A program made the translations under genes and the position numbers. The notes beneath the pieces are model-generated. The model made no database searches and was not told where the DNA came from. It saw only the letters and a program-made list of their open reading frames with translations. Shown piece by piece: positions 6,742 through 20,828 of a DNA stretch of 64,000 nucleotides; positions within the stretch are counted from its first letter, which is position 1, and every line of letters starts with the position of its first letter. Source of the stretch: Halanaerobiaceae bacterium (GTDB lineage Bacteria > Bacillota > Halanaerobiia > Halanaerobiales > Halarsenatibacteraceae); contig PWEJ01000017.1 of the NCBI GenBank assembly GCA_003553485.1, forward strand, positions 1 to 64,000, read 5' to 3'.

Positions 6742-9396
6742 CTAGGATTTTAATTCTTGAATTCTTGCCGAAATCCTGCTTAATTGTTGATTAAATTCTT
6801 CCAATTTTTCTCTTTCGGCCTCTACTAAATCTGCTGGAGCCTGGGTTACAAAACCCTCATTGGCCAGTTTGCCCTCTGCCCGTTTTATTTCAGATTTTAT
6901 CTCTTCTTTTTCTTTTTCAAGTCGGGTAATCTCTTCAGCAATATCCACCATCTCCTCTAAGGGCAGTATTATATCAACATCCTGAACTACAGCAGTAGCT
7001 GCTTTATCCGGCTTATCTGCTAAACTAGAGGCAATTTTTAATTTTTCCAGTCCAGCTAATTCACGGAGGTAAACCTCAGCTTTTTTCAAAACCTCATTGC
7101 TTTTACCTTCAGCTTCAAATAGGGCCGTGATCTTTTTCCCGGGGTCAACTTTCATCTCATTGCGAATATTTCTAATCGACCTAATTATATCCTGCACCAG
7201 CTCCATTGACTCAGCTGTTTCAGCAAAAGCAAATGTTTCCTTAATTTCAGGCCACTCCTGTAACATTATACTCCCCTGGCTGCCAGGCAATTTTTGATAA
7301 ATCTCTTCTGTAATAAAGGGCATTACGGGGTGTAAAAGTTTTAGAATATTGGCCAGCACATATTGTCCTAGCTCTGCTGCCTGTCTGACATCATCATTAT
7401 TTTCTTCTTGATAAAGTCTTGGTTTAATAAGTTCTAAATACCAATCACAGAACTCACTCCAGACAAAATCATAGAGAGTCTTGCTAACCTCTCCAAACAA
7501 ATATTTCTCCATATTTTCATTTACCTTGGCTACTATTTCGTTAAACCTATTTAATATCCATTTTTCGGCCATGGTTAAATCTTCAGGCTGATAATTTGAA
7601 ATATCCAGCTGGTCTTCTTCCTCTAAATGCATAAGCATAAAACGGGCAGCATTCCAGATCTTATTGGCAAAATTACGACTGGCCTCCAATCTTTCCTCTC
7701 TAAATCTCATATCATTGCCCGGGGGGTTGCCGGTGATCAACATAAATCTTAAGGCATCAGCCCCATAATCATCTATTACTTCTAGCGGGTCAACACCATT
7801 TCCCAGGGATTTGCTCATTTTTCTGCCCTGGGCATCTCTGATTAGACCATGAACATAAACATCACTAAAGGGTTTTTCACCTTTAAAATGCAGCCCCATA
7901 AATATCATCCTGGCTACCCAGAAAAAGATAATATCTCTACCAGTAACTAAAACATCAGTGGGATAATAAAAATTCAGGTCCTCAGTTTCTTCCGGCCAGC
8001 CCAGGGTTGAAAAGGGCCAGAGGGCAGAGCTAAACCAGGTGTCTAAAACATCTTCATCCTGTTTGAGGTCTTCACTACCACATTCTTGACATTTATCCGG
8101 CCTTTTTCGGGCCACATTTACATGCTGACAATCCTGACAGTACCAGACCGGAATTCGATGACCCCACCAGAGCTGACGAGAGATACACCAATCTTTAATA
8201 TTCTCCATCCAGTTTAGATAAACCCGGGAAAATCTTTCCGGAACAAAGTTTATATCTCCCTCTTTAACTGCTTTAATTGCCGGCTCAGCCAGAGGCTCCA
8301 TATCCACAAACCACTGCTTGGAGATCATCGGTTCAACTATTTCATCACAGCGATAACAGTGCCCAACGGCATGCTGGTGGTCTTCAATTTTAACAAGATA
8401 ATCAGCCGCTTCTAAATCAGCAACCACCTTCTGCCGACATTCTTCCCGGGTCAATCCAGCATATTCACCGGCTGCCTCGGTCATTTTTCCATCAAAACCA
8501 ATCACTTGAACTTGCTCCAGGTCATTTCTCTCCCCCATGTCAAAATCATTGGGGTCATGGGCAGGAGTAACCTTGACCATCCCTGTACCAAAATCACTAT
8601 CAACAAAGTCATCTTCTACAATAGGTAACTCACGATTCATTAACGGCAGAATAACCTTCTTGCCGATTAAATCCTGGTATCTCTCATCATCGGGATTAAC
8701 AGCAATGCCAGTATCTCCTAACATAGTTTCCGGTCTAGTCGTGGCTACAGTAATGGACCCTTCTTCGTTTTTAAAGGGGTAATTGATATAATAAAGTTTG
8801 CCCTCCGCTTCTTCATGCTCCACTTCAATATCAGAAAGGGTAGTGGCGCAATCAGGACACCAATTTACTATATAATCCCCCTGGTAGATCAATCCTTCTT
8901 CATAGAGTTTTACAAAAACTTCTGTAACCGCCTCTGAACAACCCTCATCCATGGTAAATCTTTCTCTGGTCCAATCACAGGAAGCTCCCAGATTACGAAT
9001 TTGTTCTGTGATTCTATTCCCATATTCTTCTTTCCATTGCCAGGCCCTATCCAAAAAACCTTCCCGGCCCACCTCATCTTTAGACAGATTTTCTTCCCTT
9101 CTCAATTTATCTACTACCTTTACCTCAGTAGCTATACTGGCATGGTCAGTTCCTGGCACCCAGAGGGTATTATACCCCTGCATTCTGCGCCAGCGAATAA
9201 TGATATCCTGCAGAGTATTATCCATGGCATGCCCGATATGGAGTTCTCCCGTTATATTGGGAGGAGGCATCATAATAGTAAAGGGTTTCCCTTCTTTATC
9301 TTCTGGAGGAGAAAAGAGTTCATTTTCCTCCCAATATTGATACCATTTCTTTTCTACTTTAGCTGGATCATAGGTCTTATCCAATTGCTCGGCCAT
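6742..9396 (-). CDS. valS: Valyl-tRNA synthetase (884 aa)
   Basis: Charges tRNA-Val. It is a class I synthetase with the HIGH motif (ITGELHIGHAMDN near residue 50), KMSKS in GRKMSKSLGNGVDP, an editing domain between them, a zinc-ribbon-like CxxC pair region (WYCQDC, KCQECG), and the C-terminal coiled coil rich in Glu/Lys that is typical of ValRS. Length is normal. ATG 9396 (MAEQLDKTYDPAKVEK) follows AAAGGGGAAATAAAG; an upstream in-frame extension to 9501 would run into the T-box leader and is not real. Expression is controlled by the T-box leader and promoter described separately. The formate dehydrogenase operon follows in the same direction. Confidence 0.97.
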   Translation of the reverse strand: MAEQLDKTYDPAKVEKKWYQYWEENELFSPPEDKEGKPFTIMMPPPNITGELHIGHAMDNTLQDIIIRWRRMQGYNTLWVPGTDHASIATEVKVVDKLRREENLSKDEVGREGFLDRAWQWKEEYGNRITEQIRNLGASCDWTRERFTMDEGCSEAVTEVFVKLYEEGLIYQGDYIVNWCPDCATTLSDIEVEHEEAEGKLYYINYPFKNEEGSITVATTRPETMLGDTGIAVNPDDERYQDLIGKKVILPLMNRELPIVEDDFVDSDFGTGMVKVTPAHDPNDFDMGERNDLEQVQVIGFDGKMTEAAGEYAGLTREECRQKVVADLEAADYLVKIEDHQHAVGHCYRCDEIVEPMISKQWFVDMEPLAEPAIKAVKEGDINFVPERFSRVYLNWMENIKDWCISRQLWWGHRIPVWYCQDCQHVNVARKRPDKCQECGSEDLKQDEDVLDTWFSSALWPFSTLGWPEETEDLNFYYPTDVLVTGRDIIFFWVARMIFMGLHFKGEKPFSDVYVHGLIRDAQGRKMSKSLGNGVDPLEVIDDYGADALRFMLITGNPPGNDMRFREERLEASRNFANKIWNAARFMLMHLEEEDQLDISNYQPEDLTMAEKWILNRFNEIVAKVNENMEKYLFGEVSKTLYDFVWSEFCDWYLELIKPRLYQEENNDDVRQAAELGQYVLANILKLLHPVMPFITEEIYQKLPGSQGSIMLQEWPEIKETFAFAETAESMELVQDIIRSIRNIRNEMKVDPGKKITALFEAEGKSNEVLKKAEVYLRELAGLEKLKIASSLADKPDKAATAVVQDVDIILPLEEMVDIAEEITRLEKEKEEIKSEIKRAEGKLANEGFVTQAPADLVEAEREKLEEFNQQLSRISARIQELKS

Positions 9397-9442
9397 CTTT
9401 ATTTCCCCTTTCTTTAATTTTTCAACAAAATTATTATAAATT

Positions 9443-9745
9443 AAAAACCCCTTCATCCCAGTAATAAATTGGGACGAAGAGGTTATAATCCGCGGTACCA
9501 CCCAGCTTCCAGGTCTGTACTCCCTGGCTCTTAAACCCCTAACGATGGTAAATCGTTTTAAACTATTCAGAAGAAGCTAATAGTGAATTTAAATAATAAC
9601 ATCGCTCTTCTGCTTCATTTAAAAAGCTCCAGGACGACTTTCAATCCCGGGAATACTTAGAAAACCTTTCAGCCCAGGGTTTTCCTCTCTTTTAGTTCCC
9701 GGTGATTTACTCCTTCCCTTCCCAGCCTTTAACTTTTATTTGCTT
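9443..9745 (-). promoter_or_regulatory. T-box riboswitch of valS, with GUC (Val) specifier
   Basis: On the minus strand the leader has a long stem I ending in GAAAGTCGTCC, where both overlapping candidate specifier triplets (9638-9636 and 9635-9633) are GUC, a valine codon. The T-box core TGGGTGGTACCGCGG lies at 9505-9491. A 10-bp terminator hairpin (9479-9470 with 9460-9451) is followed by GGGGTTTTTAATTT (to about 9437). Uncharged tRNA-Val would pair with the specifier and the UGGN bulge and favour the antiterminator. The specifier matches the downstream gene. Confidence 0.95.
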
Positions 9746-13583: not shown

Positions 13584-14363
13584 TCAGCTTATTTGATGGC
13601 GAATTTGATACCACAGTATACCTATTAGCTCCTGTATAGTCCTGGTGGTAGTCTTCAAACTGGTGGTAGAGGGAAAAAACTGCATAATTCCCCTCTTTTC
13701 ATCATGGGATAAAAATTCTGCCGGCACCATAGTGAGTTCAGAAAAATAACGGGCAAACTCTCTTTCAGACCGCCAGAGATGCCAGGCCGAGGTTACTACC
13801 GCTAGATTGGTATCTGCCGAAACAACTGGTAATTTTAAGATCTCTTCGGGGTGTTCCCTGGTATTATTAGATTCCTTTTCCAGCCAGACCCTGTCTCTAT
13901 CCACCCCCATTATCAGAGCTAATTCCTTCATCAATTCTGTCATTCGGCCCGGGTCTTCTCCCATTAACCCTCCCTGCATAATCAAATAATCAGCATTGCT
14001 TTTTTTAAAATATTTAACTCCCCTAATTACTCTTTGAGCAGATGAACCTCCTAAAATATCAAGTTCTTCCCCGGGCCCCTGATTGATACCGCCACTTAAA
14101 ATTGTCACTATCTCAATTTCATCATCAGGGGTTAATATATCCTCCTCCTGGTAAGTGGCTTCTAAGAAATTTACCAGGTTATTGGCAAAAATAGGGGTGC
14201 TGATAACAGCCAGCACTAGAGTAGCTAAGAGGACCAGGCCGGCTGCTATTTTCTCTTTTTTAAGATTTTTTTCCCTGCTAGCTAATCTGCTAAAGAGGTA
14301 TAATGAGACTAAGAGCAGAAAAGTGATAATAAGGAATAATGGAGAAACGAGGGTTTTAGCCAT
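13584..14363 (-). CDS. DUF218 / YdcF-ElyC family membrane protein (259 aa)
   Basis: Two hydrophobic segments (about 5-25 and 38-60) anchor a DUF218 domain with the typical pattern IVTILSGGINQG, YLIMQGG and VVTSAWHLWRSEREF. Family members (YdcF, ElyC, SanA) act in envelope or peptidoglycan-related processes; the reaction is not established. ATG 14363 follows GAGGTG. It is the last gene of the putative muropeptide operon, 19 bp after the epimerase, which fits an envelope role. Confidence 0.85.
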   Translation of the reverse strand: MAKTLVSPLFLIITFLLLVSLYLFSRLASREKNLKKEKIAAGLVLLATLVLAVISTPIFANNLVNFLEATYQEEDILTPDDEIEIVTILSGGINQGPGEELDILGGSSAQRVIRGVKYFKKSNADYLIMQGGLMGEDPGRMTELMKELALIMGVDRDRVWLEKESNNTREHPEEILKLPVVSADTNLAVVTSAWHLWRSEREFARYFSELTMVPAEFLSHDEKRGIMQFFPSTTSLKTTTRTIQELIGILWYQIRHQIS

Positions 14364-14382
14364 TATCTAACACCTCAATTTG

Positions 14383-15480
14383 TTAACAACAATTTATTTC
14401 CGTCAGATTTTTGATTGCTGTAATTCCTAAACCAGGTTCTGCTGGCATGTTAATATAGGGCTCTTCATAGGTAATTCCGCCTCTTACCGGGTCTTCTGCC
14501 AGCAACAGTGGGGCATCTAAATCCAAGCGGGTAATATTCTGACTGCTGGCTGCTAAGTGAGCTGCGGCTGTAACAGCTAGCTTGCTTTCCAACATGCAAC
14601 CAACCATGGATTCAATACCAGCAGCTTCAGCAACTGAGTTTATCAGTCTGGCCTGGGATAGACCTCCTGCTTTCATTAATTTTATATTGATAAGGTCACA
14701 ACAATCATTTTTTATCAGTCTTATGGCATCCTGAGGAGAGAAAAGACTTTCATCAGCCATTATTGGAGTTAAAACCCTCTCCTTTACATATCTCAGCCCT
14801 GATAAGTCCGCAGCCTGTACTGGCTGCTCTACCAGTTCTACATTCAGTTCTCTATTTTCCATGGCCCTGATTATTTTTACTGCTTCCTTAGGTTTCCAGC
14901 CCTGATTGGCATCGAGACGTATTTTGACATCATCTTCTACAGCAGAACGCACTTTTTCCACCCTTTTAAGATCAGTGGTAATATCCTGTCCTACCTTTAA
15001 TTTCACAGCTGTAAAACCGGCAGCAACTGCCTGTTTCGCCTCGGTCTTCATTATCTCTTCCCGGGAAACACTAATCGTCATGTCGGTCTGGAGCTTATTT
15101 TGATAATTTCCCCAGATTTGATACAGAGGCTTAGCCAAATATTTTCCGAAAAGGTCATAAACAGCCATTTCTACCGCTGCCTTTGCACTGGTATTTCCTA
15201 CAGCTGACTCTTGAATTAAAGCCGTTATATTTTCTATATCCTCAATATTTTCCCCCTTTAGTCTTGGCTCTAACCACTGAGAAATGAAACCTCTAATGCT
15301 GGCATTACTATCACCGGTAATAACCTCTGTCGGTGGAGCCTCCCCCCAGCCCACTGCGCCTTCCTCTGTGGTGATTTTAACCACTGTATTTTTAGCAGCT
15401 GTCACCTTTCTTAAAGAGGTGACAAAGGGCTTATCCATCGGTATATCTAATTGGTATAGCTTTAAATTTTTAATCTGCAT
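14383..15480 (-). CDS. ykfB: L-Ala-D/L-Glu epimerase (365 aa)
   Basis: Enolase-superfamily enzyme that converts L-Ala-D-Glu from peptidoglycan into L-Ala-L-Glu. The catalytic set is intact: KLK pair K160/K162, metal ligands D190, E218 and D243, and K267. These fall one residue from, or at, the positions I recall for the B. subtilis enzyme (K162, D191, E219, D244, K268). ATG 15480 with AGGAGGATAATT is chosen over the upstream ATG at 15501. The gene overlaps the end of the S-component gene by 11 bp, so it is in the same operon as the ECF transporter and NlpC/P60 peptidase. Other dipeptide epimerases exist in this family, but the muropeptidase neighbour favours Ala-Glu. Confidence 0.88.
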   Translation of the reverse strand: MQIKNLKLYQLDIPMDKPFVTSLRKVTAAKNTVVKITTEEGAVGWGEAPPTEVITGDSNASIRGFISQWLEPRLKGENIEDIENITALIQESAVGNTSAKAAVEMAVYDLFGKYLAKPLYQIWGNYQNKLQTDMTISVSREEIMKTEAKQAVAAGFTAVKLKVGQDITTDLKRVEKVRSAVEDDVKIRLDANQGWKPKEAVKIIRAMENRELNVELVEQPVQAADLSGLRYVKERVLTPIMADESLFSPQDAIRLIKNDCCDLINIKLMKAGGLSQARLINSVAEAAGIESMVGCMLESKLAVTAAAHLAASSQNITRLDLDAPLLLAEDPVRGGITYEEPYINMPAEPGLGITAIKNLTEINCC

Positions 15481-16213
15481 AATTATCCTCCTGATTTTCA
15501 ATTTCTCCTGGCCCTACATAAACTCCAATCTTTGGCAGACCAGCTAATAATGGAGCCCCTATCACCGCTGCTCCTAGAGAAAAAATAGCTCTTTCAAGGG
15601 GCGCTAAAAAAGTCAAACCCAGCCAGGCTTCTGCTGGCATATGTAAAACAACTATACTGAAATAATTGGCTATTGCTGCTGCTCCAACAAAGCCAGCAAA
15701 GGAGATCAACCAGATTCCAACTCCCTTTTTAAAGGTCTGAGGTGATTTCAACAATTTTATTCCCAACTTACCGCCTAATACCGCCATGATGACACCTAAA
15801 GTATAGAATACCGCTGGGAAAATAGCAGCCTCTCGCCCAATGGAGGTAGTGAACCAAAAAACTGTTCCCAGTAAAATAATTAAAACACCATAAATCCATT
15901 TTCTTCTGCTAACCAGGCCAGTGACCAGGGCATTCACAGTGCCTACTATAAAAGTTGCTATCCCTAACCAGGCAGTATGGGGAGCCAGCAGTTGCCCGAT
16001 AAATCCTCCTGCTGCAGCGCTAACAGCCCCACCTAAAGGCCCAAAAAAGATCCCAGCTAGCGGCGTGAAGGCAGCACTGACACTGAAAGTACCTCCTACC
16101 CCAATTAAAGGAATAGTGGGTAAAAGGTTGCCTATAGCTATCAGAGCTGCCCAGATGGCAATTACCGCCGGATGAACATCTCCCAGTAAACTGCTTTCTT
16201 GTTCTATATTCAC
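15470..16213 (-). CDS. ECF transporter substrate-binding S component, substrate unknown (247 aa)
   Basis: Integral membrane protein with about six to seven hydrophobic segments, and a Gly/Pro-rich first half (PTIPLIGVGGTFSVSAAFTP, GIFFGPLGGAVSAAAGGFIG) like S components, which bind the substrate. It is larger than the usual 180-200 residues. GTG 16213 overlaps the stop of the A' gene (GTGA) with AAGGAGG upstream. It is translationally coupled to both ECF ATPases and followed by the epimerase. S components normally carry vitamins or metals; here every non-transporter neighbour acts on cell-wall peptides, so a muropeptide substrate is my inference, not something the sequence proves. Confidence 0.85.
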   Translation of the reverse strand: MNIEQESSLLGDVHPAVIAIWAALIAIGNLLPTIPLIGVGGTFSVSAAFTPLAGIFFGPLGGAVSAAAGGFIGQLLAPHTAWLGIATFIVGTVNALVTGLVSRRKWIYGVLIILLGTVFWFTTSIGREAAIFPAVFYTLGVIMAVLGGKLGIKLLKSPQTFKKGVGIWLISFAGFVGAAAIANYFSIVVLHMPAEAWLGLTFLAPLERAIFSLGAAVIGAPLLAGLPKIGVYVGPGEIENQEDNYAD

Positions 16214-17052
16214 TGTACTTTCCTCCTTAAAGTTCTCTCTATAATTATTTCTCCCAGTTCTTTAATGGTCAATACTTCTTTATCGATATTTAATTCCTGT
16301 TGCAGTTTTTTTCCCAGCCTGTTAGATAACGGCGGTTTGATGTGAGATTGAAGGATCACATCCGGTTGAGAAAATACTTCCCGGGGTCCTCCCTGTAAAA
16401 TTATCTTTCCTTTATTTAAAACCATTACTCTATCAACATACCTGGCAACTAAAGACATATCATGAGTGACTAAAATTACCGTCTTGCCTTCTCTATTGAG
16501 CCGGGTGAGAATATTCATAAGTTGACAGGTGCCGGTATGATCCTGACCCAGAGTTGGTTCATCAAGGATGATTATATCCGGATCCATTGCCAGTACTGAA
16601 GCAATAACTACCTTTGTTCTATCACCATGACTTAAAGCCGGGGGAAATTCCTTTCTTTTTTCCCTTAAACCCACAGTTTCTAAGGCTTCGGTGATTTTTT
16701 GCTCAAGTAACTCTTTTTCATAACCCAGATTCTTCAAACCAAAGGCCACCTCTTCTTCAACCGTCTGGGCAAAAAGCTGCATATCCGGGTTTTGGAGCAC
16801 AAATCCCACTTCTCTGGATAGATCTGATATATTTAACCCCTCTGTGTTTTTACCATTAATTTTTATGGTCCCCCGGTCAGGCTCTAATAATCCTATCAAA
16901 TTTTTTAACAAAGTCGATTTACCTGAACCATTCTGGCCAATTATTGCTAAAATTTCTCCCGAAACAACTTCAAAATTGATATTCTCTAAAACTTTTTTAT
17001 CTTGTCGATAGGCAAAAGTCAGGTTTTTTACCTCTAATTTTTTATCCTTCAT
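16210..17052 (-). CDS. ECF transporter ATPase A' (280 aa)
   Basis: ABC ATPase of the energising module. Walker A GQNGSGKST, Q-loop VLQNPDMQLFAQTVEEEVAFG (an ECF-type extended Q-loop), Walker B DIIILDEPTLG and H-loop VTHD are present. The signature motif is LSHGDRTKV rather than LSGGQ, a noticeable change of the second Gly position. ATG 17052 sits 1 nt after the TAA of the other ATPase. The C-terminal part is the usual EcfA dimerisation region. It forms a heterodimer with the product of 17053-17916. Confidence 0.9.
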   Translation of the reverse strand: MKDKKLEVKNLTFAYRQDKKVLENINFEVVSGEILAIIGQNGSGKSTLLKNLIGLLEPDRGTIKINGKNTEGLNISDLSREVGFVLQNPDMQLFAQTVEEEVAFGLKNLGYEKELLEQKITEALETVGLREKRKEFPPALSHGDRTKVVIASVLAMDPDIIILDEPTLGQDHTGTCQLMNILTRLNREGKTVILVTHDMSLVARYVDRVMVLNKGKIILQGGPREVFSQPDVILQSHIKPPLSNRLGKKLQQELNIDKEVLTIKELGEIIIERTLRRKVQ

Positions 17053-17916
17053 TTATATCACTTCCTGGATAATCTTAGATAGCTCTTTTAAATGACTATT
17101 TTCCTGAAGAAAGCTCTCTATGCTTTTACCACTGGCCTTCTCTAAATAATCAATTAAGGCAAATATTTCTGGCAGGGCAATATTGAGATTGCTAACTAGT
17201 TCCGGGTCGCGGAATATCTCTGCCGGTCTGCCCTTAGCTTTAACTCTTCCCTCTTTAAGGGCCCAGATATGATCAGCAAATTTTACCGCCTGATTGGTTT
17301 TATGGGTAGCCATCACTATTGTCATATTATACTTTTCCTTTAAATCTTTAATTACAGCAAATACTTCTTCTGTACCAAGGGGGTCCAGTTCTGAAGTTGG
17401 TTCATCCAGGACCAGCATATCCGGGTTCATCGCCAGAGCTGCGGCAATAGCCAGGCGTTGTTTCTCACCTCCAGAAAGTACAGAGGGATTCCTTTCCTTT
17501 TGTTCCTTTAAATCAACCACCTCAAGGGCCCAGGATACAGCTTCTTCAATCTCTTCTTTCGGCATATTTAAATTTTCCGGGCCAAAGGCAACTTCATTTT
17601 TAACCTTTGTGGTAAATATTTGGCTGGCAGGATTTTCTAATACAATCCCCACTTTTTGAGAGATACTGGCAATGGAAGAGTCGGTTGTAGCTTTACCATT
17701 GATAATAACCTCTCCTTTAATCTTTCCTTTTTCAGAATGAGGAATAATTCCATTTAAGCATTTGCAGAGGGTGGATTTTCCTGCCCCATTTTCTCCAGCA
17801 ATAACAACAAATTCACCGGCATATATTTTTTGCTCAATATTTTTTAGAGCCCAAAAATCGCTACCTCGATACTGAAAAGAAAAATTTTTAAATTCGGCAA
17901 TAACTTTAGCTACCAT
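17053..17916 (-). CDS. ECF transporter ATPase A (287 aa)
   Basis: Second ABC ATPase of the ECF module: Walker A GENGAGKST, Q-loop with VLENPASQIFTTKVKNEVAFG, signature LSGGEKQRLAIA, Walker B MLVLDEPTSELD and H-loop ATH. Paired with the A' gene downstream without a gap. ATG 17916 (MVAKVIAEF) has GGAG nine bases upstream; ATG 17931 is the longer alternative but has no well-spaced ribosome site. Confidence 0.9.
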   Translation of the reverse strand: MVAKVIAEFKNFSFQYRGSDFWALKNIEQKIYAGEFVVIAGENGAGKSTLCKCLNGIIPHSEKGKIKGEVIINGKATTDSSIASISQKVGIVLENPASQIFTTKVKNEVAFGPENLNMPKEEIEEAVSWALEVVDLKEQKERNPSVLSGGEKQRLAIAAALAMNPDMLVLDEPTSELDPLGTEEVFAVIKDLKEKYNMTIVMATHKTNQAVKFADHIWALKEGRVKAKGRPAEIFRDPELVSNLNIALPEIFALIDYLEKASGKSIESFLQENSHLKELSKIIQEVI

Positions 17917-17944
17917 CTTTTTTATCTCCATCCTAAAGGCAGTT

Positions 17945-18742
17945 TTAAATAAAATTTAGCAACAATAAAAAGGTTAAATAACAGAATCCAGTTACCAGAA
18001 TCAACCAATCTAAGCTTTTCATCCTGATTTCTGTAATAAAAGTTCTCTCTTTAGAGACCCCAAAGGCGCGAGAATCCATGGCCACCCCCATAAGTTGAGA
18101 GCGTCGCATGGCGCCAAAAACCAGCGGCAATACCAGGGTAGGATAAGCCTTTAATTTTTCCAGGAAATTGCCACTTTCAAAAACTGTAAAACCCCGTAAA
18201 GTCTGGGCATTGATTATCTCTTCTATCTCTTCCTGTAAAATAGGCATCTGATTTAAAGCAGTGGTAACTATAAAGGCAATTTTATAGGGAAGTCCCAGCT
18301 TAACCAGGCCTAAAATCATATTCTCCAGAGAAGTTGTATAAATAAAAAGAGGGAGCAGACATACCAGGGTTAAAACCCTTAAGGAAAGCAAAAGACCAAA
18401 TAAAATACCTTCTAATGTAATATTGCCCAATCCTCCTAATATTGGAACAAAAGCTGGCAGCAGTGGCTCTAAAAGAATAGTTGTGCCGTTATAAAACATG
18501 GCCTGCAAAATTATTATAATTATAAATAGCCCGGCTAATAATTTCAAATAGCCCGAGATTATATTTAAAGGAATACTGGCCAGCTTCCAGACTAAGAGTG
18601 TTGATAAAAAGGCCAGGGTTAATACTATATAATTACTAACTATAAAGATTAAAAGAGTCGCCATGATAACCAGAATAAATTTAACCCGAGGGTCTAAACG
18701 ATGTAAAAAAGAATCACCAGCTATATATCTGATTCGGGGCAT
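17945..18742 (-). CDS. ECF transporter transmembrane T component (265 aa)
   Basis: About five to six membrane segments plus the cytoplasmic coupling helices, with the two EcfT motifs in the form NAQTLRGF and AMDSRAFG (the Ala-Arg-Gly type). It couples the ATPases to S components and so decides which S components are served. ATG 18742 (MPRIRYIAG) follows AAGGAAGTG by 6 nt; GTG 18751 lies inside that ribosome site. Second gene of the muropeptide operon. Confidence 0.9.
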   Translation of the reverse strand: MPRIRYIAGDSFLHRLDPRVKFILVIMATLLIFIVSNYIVLTLAFLSTLLVWKLASIPLNIISGYLKLLAGLFIIIIILQAMFYNGTTILLEPLLPAFVPILGGLGNITLEGILFGLLLSLRVLTLVCLLPLFIYTTSLENMILGLVKLGLPYKIAFIVTTALNQMPILQEEIEEIINAQTLRGFTVFESGNFLEKLKAYPTLVLPLVFGAMRRSQLMGVAMDSRAFGVSKERTFITEIRMKSLDWLILVTGFCYLTFLLLLNFI

Positions 18743-18779
18743 TTTATTCACTTCCTTTTATGCTTGCAAATTCCTCTAT

Positions 18780-20051
18780 TTAATAAAACTTTTTTGCAGT
18801 GGATAAAGCCTGGAGATAACTTTTCTCTTTTCCTTTTATCTTTTGAGACAGTTTCATCACAAAAACTCGATAGAGAGGTCGGTCCTTCTTTTCGCCTTCT
18901 ATTGTTCGATAGCCTGAGCCGGCATGGATTACATAATATTCACCAGCTCTTTCACCTAAATAAAGCATAACATGGCCTGGCATATAGAGCACATCTCCTG
19001 GAGTTAAACTTTTCAATATATCTTTTCTTTTTTTATTGCCACCAGAAAAGGGTATGCTTTCCCCGACATCAATTTCCTCCTGTTTCCCGGCATCCCGGGG
19101 CAGTTTTAGGCCCAGGGTAGCAAAAATATCTTTTATAAACCTGGAACAATCTCGGCGGTTTAAAAGTCCGCCCCAGCCATATCTTTCTCCAAGCATTTTA
19201 AAGGCCTGTTTAATAATATTCTCCCCCGTGTAAGGCAAATAATCTAAGGCTACGTCGTTTTTTTTAGCCAGAAAGGTCTCTTTAAATATAAGTTTTTCGT
19301 CTTTAGAAAGAGTCGGAACTTTCACCGAATAACAGCCAGGTTGAGCTTTCCCACCAGGTGCCAGAGGAATTTTATCACCCATCTGAAACTTATAAGTGCT
19401 AAGAGAAGTATCTGCTAAAGAGGGCTCTGTCTCTATTCTGCTCTCCAGCACCAGCAAGAAATCTTTTTGCTGGTGATATTTTAGAACTTGCTGCTTCTCC
19501 CCTGGAGCTACCATTTCTTTTTTTAGCCAGCCAGCATAAAAAGGAGTAAGAACAAAATACCAGTTGTCATTTTTGCTGCTCAGCAATATAATTGCCGGTG
19601 TTCCTGGAGAAAGGGCGGTAAGCTGTCCTAAATCCTGGACCTTATTATCTGATTGAGGGTAAAATTCTTTAGCGGTTGGGTAGGCCCGTAGATTACTTCT
19701 CTTTATTATCATTCCCCACTTCAAAGATATATCTTTAAGATCTTTATTTATCTCAATCTGCCTGGCTAAATCTTCTTTTATAGCTGGAGATATTTCGTTG
19801 CCTCTTCTATCATAAAACTGGCTTTCTAATAATGATGTTGGTGGAGATATCTTTTCCAATAGGAGCTTTAGCTGATTAGTTAACTTCTTTTCCTTTATTT
19901 TAGCTAAATCATGGTAATAACCTAAAAAGTCCTGTCTTTTAGCTGCTGATAAAAAGTCTTGATTAAGTTTAGTTATCTTCTCTGAATTAATTATAACATC
20001 ATTATCACCACTGGTAAAATCAATCCAATAAGATGGCTTTTCTTTATCCAC
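18780..20051 (-). CDS. NlpC/P60 endopeptidase with SH3 domains, no signal peptide (423 aa)
   Basis: Cell-wall peptidase of the YkfC / gamma-D-glutamyl-L-diamino acid endopeptidase type. The N-terminal stabilising helices (about 1-110) are followed by SH3-like regions (RSNLRAYPTAKEFY at 118-131 begins the first) and the NlpC/P60 domain with catalytic C302 (NRRDCSRF), H360 (PGHVMLYL) and H376 (IHAG). No signal peptide or membrane segment is visible, so it should act in the cytoplasm on imported peptides. GTG 20051 follows AGGAGG by 8 nt. It is the first gene of the operon with the ECF transporter and Ala-Glu epimerase. Cleavage between D-Glu and the diamino acid would make exactly the epimerase substrate. 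Confidence 0.88.
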   Translation of the reverse strand: MDKEKPSYWIDFTSGDNDVIINSEKITKLNQDFLSAAKRQDFLGYYHDLAKIKEKKLTNQLKLLLEKISPPTSLLESQFYDRRGNEISPAIKEDLARQIEINKDLKDISLKWGMIIKRSNLRAYPTAKEFYPQSDNKVQDLGQLTALSPGTPAIILLSSKNDNWYFVLTPFYAGWLKKEMVAPGEKQQVLKYHQQKDFLLVLESRIETEPSLADTSLSTYKFQMGDKIPLAPGGKAQPGCYSVKVPTLSKDEKLIFKETFLAKKNDVALDYLPYTGENIIKQAFKMLGERYGWGGLLNRRDCSRFIKDIFATLGLKLPRDAGKQEEIDVGESIPFSGGNKKRKDILKSLTPGDVLYMPGHVMLYLGERAGEYYVIHAGSGYRTIEGEKKDRPLYRVFVMKLSQKIKGKEKSYLQALSTAKKFY

Positions 20052-20160: not shown

Positions 20161-20182
20161 AAAGGATAGACTAACTAAAAAG

Positions 20183-20273
20183 ATGACATCTCTTATGGGA
20201 GTCATACTTTATTTAAGTTTACTAAAAAAATTTGCTTTCACCTGGATCTCTCTAATTGAGACCGGGATGAAAG
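20183..20273 (+). ncRNA. Tandem bulged-A hairpin leader, putative cis-regulatory RNA
   Basis: Two hairpins share a design: an outer stem, a single bulged A on the 5' side, then TCTC pairing with GRGA. Hairpin 1: ATGAC(20183-20187)-A-TCTC / GGGA-GTCAT(20201-20205). Hairpin 2: CCTGG(20241-20245)-A-TCTC / GAGA-CCGGG(20262-20266), extended by CTTTCA (20235-20240) with TGAAAG (20268-20273). The last stem covers the first bases of the AGGAGG ribosome site (20272-20277), so folding could block translation. As I recall, the 'pan' RNA motif is a stem-loop with bulged adenosines upstream of pantothenate genes; that is a candidate, not a firm match. Confidence 0.6.
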
Positions 20274-20282
20274 GAGGCTAAA

Positions 20283-20828
20283 ATGCAAACTTTAAGCTCT
20301 GCTGGTAATGAATGGGAATTTACTACCAGACGTATCGTTATATCCGGAATGTTGGGCGCTATTTCTATTGTTTTAGGTTCTACAGGTTTAGGATTTATTC
20401 CCGTTCCCACCCCGGCTGCTCATGCTACCATAATGCATGTGCCGGCTATTTTAGGTGGGGTAATTGAAGGGCCCTTAGTCGGGCTTTTAATCGGACTTAT
20501 ATTCGGCCTCTTCAGCTTCACTCGAGCGACTGCACCCTTTTTTGCCGATCCCGTAATAGCCATTCTACCCAGGTTACTCATAGGAGTGTTAGCTTATTAT
20601 AGTTATCGTTCCTTTGCTTCCACCAATAAAAATCTAGCTTTTATTGCTGCTGGAGCAGTCGGCACAGCAATTAATACTATCGGTGTGTTAGGCCTGGCTA
20701 CCCTAAGAGGTTATCTGCCTTTAGAGGCCAGTGTAGTCACCGGACTGGTCCAGGGAATTCCTGAAATGATAGTAGCAGCCCTATTAACCAGTTTAATTGG
20801 TAAGGCTGTCTTAAGTTATCGCTCTTAA
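20283..20828 (+). CDS. Solitary ECF S component, PanT-like (181 aa)
   Basis: Membrane protein with about five to six hydrophobic segments and the typical S-component stretch HATIMHVPAILGGVIEGP followed by GLLIGLIFGLFSF. This resembles the group often annotated as pantothenate or folate-family S components; which vitamin is not certain. ATG 20283 has AGGAGG 5 nt upstream. It has its own promoter and leader RNA and no ATPases of its own; the only energising module in view is the divergent operon at 16210-18742. Confidence 0.82.
   Translation: MQTLSSAGNEWEFTTRRIVISGMLGAISIVLGSTGLGFIPVPTPAAHATIMHVPAILGGVIEGPLVGLLIGLIFGLFSFTRATAPFFADPVIAILPRLLIGVLAYYSYRSFASTNKNLAFIAAGAVGTAINTIGVLGLATLRGYLPLEASVVTGLVQGIPEMIVAALLTSLIGKAVLSYRS

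Follow-up and report, generated by a model that had tools for sequence, protein, structure and literature searches.

A dedicated ECF importer with an unnamed S component lies within a murein-peptide operon of a Halanaerobiaceae bacterium

The window analysed here, a stretch of 64,000 nucleotides of a Halanaerobiaceae bacterium, holds the four genes of an ECF transporter between two genes for murein-peptide enzymes. What does this transporter carry? A preliminary description of the locus proposed a cell-wall peptide, which, if true, would give both a new ECF substrate class and a new cell-wall recycling route. We favour instead, with a probability of roughly 0.6, that a dedicated ECF importer for a non-murein small amide or heterocycle was inserted in a native murein-peptide operon.

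Operon layout and the two murein-peptide enzymes

On the minus strand, we found the gene order NlpC/P60, EcfT, EcfA, EcfA', S component, L-Ala-D/L-Glu epimerase and DUF218. ORFs, Pfam and NCBIfam agree on the positions and families of these seven genes and on their tight or overlapping packing, as had been claimed for them. The features of the locus, including two that lie outside the operon, are the following:

13584..14363, minus strand: DUF218 (ElyC/SanA-like) membrane protein, final gene of the packed run (PF02698)
14383..15480, minus strand: L-Ala-D/L-Glu (dipeptide) epimerase, YkfB-like, MR_MLE (best match 1jpm/1tkk, E 2e-112)
15470..16213, minus strand: ECF S component, 247 aa, unnamed family (borderline PF07155; homologs; modelled fold)
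16210..17052, minus strand: EcfA' ATPase (TIGR04521, 267 bits; curated cut-off of 330 not reached)
17053..17931, minus strand: EcfA ATPase (TIGR04520, 267 bits; curated cut-off of 315 not reached)
17945..18751, minus strand: EcfT (CbiQ family), transmembrane component of the dedicated ECF module (PF02361, 110 bits)
18780..20051, minus strand: NlpC/P60 gamma-D-glutamyl-diamino-acid endopeptidase-like protein (SH3b + NlpC/P60; Pfam NLPC_P60, SH3_6)
20180..20274, plus strand: pan motif RNA, leader of the divergent gene, outside the operon (RF01749, 59.5 bits, gathering 36.2)
20283..20828, plus strand: divergent ECF S component of PanT type, outside the operon (PF12822; 4rfs_S, 6zg3_C; pan motif leader)

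The NlpC/P60 and EcfT genes are separated by 28 bp and EcfT and EcfA by 13 bp, EcfA and EcfA' abut (0 bp), EcfA' overlaps the S gene by 4 bp, the S gene overlaps the epimerase gene by 11 bp, and DUF218 follows after 19 bp. The likely epimerase start, ATG 15480, falls within the end of the S gene, and the epimerase ribosome-binding site (AGGAGG) sits in the final codons of that gene, a layout typical of translational coupling. We infer that the run from NlpC/P60 to DUF218 forms one transcript. A misassembly is unlikely, since there is synteny with same-genus genomes on either side (PanT upstream in the two genomes that cover that side, epimerase–DUF218–radical SAM downstream) and since the cassette is interior to a 133 kb contig.

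First, we looked at the enzymes. The NlpC/P60 protein combines SH3b and NlpC/P60 domains, its triad C302/H360/H376 is invariant in 15 NlpC relatives and its N-terminus, upon inspection, contains no signal-peptide-like or hydrophobic stretch, so that both the triad and the missing signal peptide of the preliminary description were borne out. These are the features of YkfC, that is of a gamma-D-Glu-diamino-acid endopeptidase, which is its predicted activity. As for the epimerase, the closest solved structures are those of the B. subtilis L-Ala-D/L-Glu epimerase (1jpm/1tkk, E 2e-112), and the KxK motif, the metal ligands, the distal Lys, the DxD motif and the Arg of TSLR (20s loop) are all present, each in what we presume to be its usual role. 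With these enolase-superfamily motifs and the 20s-loop Arg, the protein is of the YkfB type, and it scores 264 bits against NF041118, under the cut-off of 500. Judged by their sequences, NlpC/P60 and epimerase are a predicted ykfC/ykfB-type pair.

The Bacillus ykf operon, described together with its ABC importer component (PMC3305447), shares with the window run the two predicted enzyme activities and a peptidase without signal peptide; such a signal-less YkfC has a role in peptide recycling (PMC9928106). In contrast to the Bacillus operon, the run in the window includes neither YkfA (LdcA) nor an ABC peptide importer, it contains an ECF module and S component as well as DUF218, and its NlpC is closer to the 3m1u type.

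A dedicated ECF module with an S component of an unnamed family

EcfT, two EcfA-type ATPases and an S component are encoded together, which makes the ECF transporter complete. For both ATPases, ECF models top all NCBIfam matches, though under the curated equivalog cut-offs. Elsewhere in the genome, a second, canonical EcfA-EcfA'-EcfT module lies amid ribosomal-protein genes and truA (EcfT at C58:115354-116097). This is what one would expect of a shared module; the module of the window is additional to it and dedicated. The locus is accordingly what the preliminary description had taken it for, a murein-peptide catabolic operon of ykfC/ykfB type with a complete dedicated ECF. As in dedicated (group I type) ECF importers, the full T-A-A'-S set stands in one run and helix 1 of the S component carries AXXXA, whereas the S family of the window differs from theirs in being without an assigned substrate and, in the model, in having helices beyond the six-helix core.

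The S component has conserved motifs around HPAV..WAA, APHTAWLG and ERAIFS. It was modelled with a pLDDT of 88 in an S-component fold, and the AXXXA docking motif known from helix 1 of S components (PMC11109136) is found there as A22-x3-A26, conserved in the family. Compared with six-helix S proteins, the model apparently contains an extra helical hairpin at about residues 106-155.

Could the S component nevertheless be one of the known vitamin-specific ones (for riboflavin, folate, pantothenate etc.), its place in the operon being accidental? It does match PF07155, at threshold (26.7 bits, residues 16-105), and the folate-family model TIGR04518 weakly (14.7 bits, the cut-off being 60). Also, the top Foldseek matches of the model are S components with a probability of 1.0, but with E > 0.001, and BioY, PanT, RibU, ThiT and FolT are among the fold matches. 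However, the best of these structural matches, RibU, has a TM of just 0.65 by target length, NCBIfam holds no equivalog for the protein, the family profile found no sequence match among PDB chains even at E 10, and the genes beside the S family elsewhere are catabolic and not vitamin biosynthesis genes. Since no curated substrate-specific model of a vitamin or metal S family was matched above its cut-off and no PDB sequence was matched, we set aside a known vitamin family, which we regard as highly improbable. In this the S component agrees with the preliminary description, which however drew the range of known S-component substrates too narrowly with vitamins and metals: tryptophan, too, is given as a substrate of ECF transporters (PMC11487621). 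The ligand of the S family, once found, would widen the ECF substrates past the vitamins, metals and tryptophan named in the literature consulted.

Neighbours of the S family in other genomes

Outside the window genome, close homologs of the S component turned up in 24 genomes, all from Bacillota or Spirochaetota, in a genome scan and in searches that covered 399 and 393 genomes; most of these homologs adjoin their own EcfT and ATPases. The family is rare, with 1/38 genomes of the order and, distant paralogs included, 10/399 in the phylum sample. In the S tree, the window protein groups with Spirochaetota, with a weak support of 83/83. An alignment of 14 rows, the window protein being one of them, has 46 invariant positions, including APHTAWLG and a Glu-Arg pair in the last long helix, and the window protein retains all 46. 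This argues for a conserved substrate and makes it unlikely that the S component of the window switched to a charged tripeptide.

If the transporter carried murein peptides, its S component might be expected beside murein-peptide enzymes, and co-occurrence with ykfB and NlpC/P60 had been put forward as the check. We found an epimerase or NlpC gene near the S homolog in 0/24 other genomes (flanks of about 3 to 20 kb, an absence counting for less where the contig is short); the S gene stands beside such enzymes only in the window. This is the outcome that the preliminary description had named as refuting its proposal.

The neighbours that do recur are of another kind. Counted by genome within eight genes of S, Amidohydro_2 is present in 15/24, a TRZ/ATZ amidohydrolase in 8/24, an M20 amidohydrolase (TIGR01891 above cut-off) in 6/24 and Mch, the methenyl-H4MPT cyclohydrolase, in 6/24 (above the NCBIfam cut-off in the two tested), counts that share ancestry as eight Treponema-clade genomes and three related Clostridia supply many of them. 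Other neighbours are methyl-THF:corrinoid methyltransferase (MeTr)-like, FTHFS, MTHFR-like, EtfAB, GcvT, AOR and xanthine-dehydrogenase-like proteins and FAD oxidases of the glycine/sarcosine oxidase type. The S family, together with an ECF module of its own, recurs in these two phyla, often in amidohydrolase/one-carbon clusters. Within the window genome, Mch is absent, which leaves the best-developed partner pathway incomplete there, while a copy of Amidohydro_2 on another contig is weak evidence only, since a sister genome without the S component has it as well.

Several of these neighbours hydrolyse amides, which raises the idea that the S family substrate is peptide-like (an N-acyl amino acid, a dipeptide or a cyclic amide). 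Elsewhere it would then be handled by amidohydrolases and by enzymes of the M20 and M19 types, and NlpC and epimerase would act on a related compound in the window, such that the link within the operon would be functional and the substrate not a classical muropeptide. The recurrence of Amidohydro_2, M20 and TRZ/ATZ proteins, the FAD glycine/sarcosine-oxidase-like enzyme among the neighbours and an M19 dipeptidase gene immediately ahead of a distant S paralog all fit with this. Nevertheless, we hold it to be rather improbable, because Mch and the MeTr-like, FTHFS, AOR and xanthine-dehydrogenase-like proteins among the neighbours speak instead for a metabolism of one-carbon units or heterocycles and the enzymes of the window resemble standard murein enzymes.

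Some loci of the family deserve mention for themselves. In Clostridia and Spirochaetota (L106, L110, L123 and L124), a cluster recurs that is made of Mch, a pterin-binding methyltransferase, an FAD oxidase and this ECF, along with two Amidohydro_2, a TRZ/ATZ amidohydrolase, an M20 amidohydrolase and GntR-like regulators; it looks like a catabolic island for some nitrogen compound. Tandem copies of the S gene occur beside ECF ATPase genes, three in L112 (G349:C276) and two in L109 (G278:C145). At L119:8263-10008, the M19 gene, coding for a membrane dipeptidase, is directly followed by the distant S paralog. In L158 (G009:C7), from the same order, Mch adjoins what appears, from sequence only, to be a one-carbon cluster of formylmethanofuran/methanopterin type.

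The same locus in relatives and the probable cargo

Among 101 genomes surveyed for the enzymes (NlpC at E <= 1e-10, epimerase at E <= 1e-60), 16 have NlpC and 24 the epimerase, own genome counted, and the two lie near each other in 10 relatives. NlpC directly adjoins the epimerase in six (L067, L069, L072, L073, L074 and L075), a beta-lactamase-like protein stands between them in three (L070, L078 and L079) and an importer in one (L071). Binding proteins of the SBP_bac_5 type and permeases are found in or beside L067, L069, L070, L071, L072, L074, L075 and L078, two of the binding proteins being confirmed by Pfam and the others called by look or by a survey of SBP_bac_5 genes. An oligopeptide-type ABC importer alongside ykf-type genes, which the preliminary description named for Bacillus, is both documented there (PMC3305447) and often seen beside the enzyme pair in relatives.

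The Dpp-linked loci of the order (L067, L069-L075 and L078) resemble the window in their enzymes, with about 32-40% identity for NlpC and about 50-60% for the epimerase. They differ from it in that most have SBP_bac_5-type binding proteins and permeases, some have a protein of the Orn/DAP/Arg-decarboxylase family or a beta-lactamase-like protein, and none has the ECF of the window. More broadly, the EcfT or S gene of the window appeared in 0/61 stretches that surround the NlpC or epimerase genes of relatives, some of which overlap; the only such gene there is that for PanT. From this survey, the adjacency of NlpC and epimerase would seem to be ancestral in the order, and the ECF cassette is peculiar to the window genome. 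Taking the surveys from the S side and from the enzyme side together, the link between the S family and murein enzymes is seen only in the window genome.

Within the genus, the same locus can be compared with and without the cassette, a natural comparison. G001 and G002 have the order PanT (divergent), epimerase, DUF218 and radical SAM, without NlpC and without ECF, and G003 agrees with this order as far as its contig extends. By tblastn, no remnants of NlpC or ECF were detected in the sister genomes in the stretch between PanT and epimerase. NlpC is found only in the window genome among its genus, and the same-genus epimerases (L064, L065 and L066) have His where that of the window has the TSLR Arg, which, with the absence of NlpC, suggests a changed dipeptide specificity.

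These observations bear on the proposal that the ECF imports a murein peptide (L-Ala-gamma-D-Glu-diaminopimelate or a related amide-bonded peptide) in place of a Dpp/Opp importer, with NlpC/P60 as the cytoplasmic enzyme that cleaves the peptide and the epimerase turning L-Ala-D-Glu into L-Ala-L-Glu. The single packed run with its overlapping S and epimerase genes speaks for it, as do the Dpp-type importers in the equivalent place in relatives, the restriction of both NlpC and the TSLR Arg to the window within the genus, and the closeness of both enzymes to characterised or predicted murein-peptide enzymes. However, the neighbourhoods of the S homologs and the 61 stretches of the reverse comparison, as well as the unchanged family-invariant S residues, are against it. 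Moreover, the window genome has 26 SBP_bac_5 genes on hand, so that peptides can be imported without an ECF. We therefore consider a murein-peptide cargo unlikely, though still the main competitor of the insertion of a non-murein importer. No ECF transporter for a cell-wall peptide was found in the literature searched.

According to this insertion reading, a native murein-peptide catabolic operon of ykfC-ykfB type would have been the starting state, and a complete importer (EcfT-EcfA-EcfA'-S), presumably gained by lateral transfer, would have been placed between NlpC/P60 and epimerase. The substrate of the S family is probably a small amide-bonded or heterocyclic nitrogen compound; in most other carriers, amidohydrolases would process it and it would supply one-carbon metabolism. 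For the murein tripeptide, entry would most likely still be via a Dpp/Opp-type importer. Several findings weigh against the insertion of a non-murein importer: the cassette sits exactly between two murein enzymes with its S gene overlapping that for the epimerase, it occupies the slot that holds a peptide importer in relatives, Mch is missing from the window genome and its Amidohydro_2 copy is shared with a sister genome that has no S component, and the M20 amidohydrolases as well as the M19 dipeptidase beside the distant S paralog can cut peptide-like bonds.

The divergent PanT gene and RNA leaders

Upstream of the operon, the only PDB matches of the divergent PanT-type gene are 4rfs_S (E 7e-8) and 6zg3_C; 6zg3 is listed as an ECF PanT complex, and 4rfs we take to be a pantothenate ECF transporter. 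Compared with ECF-PanT (4rfs, 6zg3), the transporter of the operon is of the same class and the divergent neighbour is of PanT type, whereas the S component of the operon is related to PanT by fold only. The PanT gene also occurs in G001 and G002 with no adjoining ECF module in the stretches examined, and is therefore not tied to the cassette. DUF218 follows the epimerase in same-genus genomes too.

Pan motifs have been described upstream of pantothenate synthesis operons (PMC2864571). At 20180-20828, the pan RNA stands on a transporter gene and not on pantothenate synthesis genes, and we found the motif at the sister PanT gene in G001 as well (L065:5457-5566). Finally, the minus-strand ORF 6742-9501 is preceded by a T-box leader at 9500-9732 (RF00230, 73 bits, under gathering, the match being truncated where the searched stretch ends).
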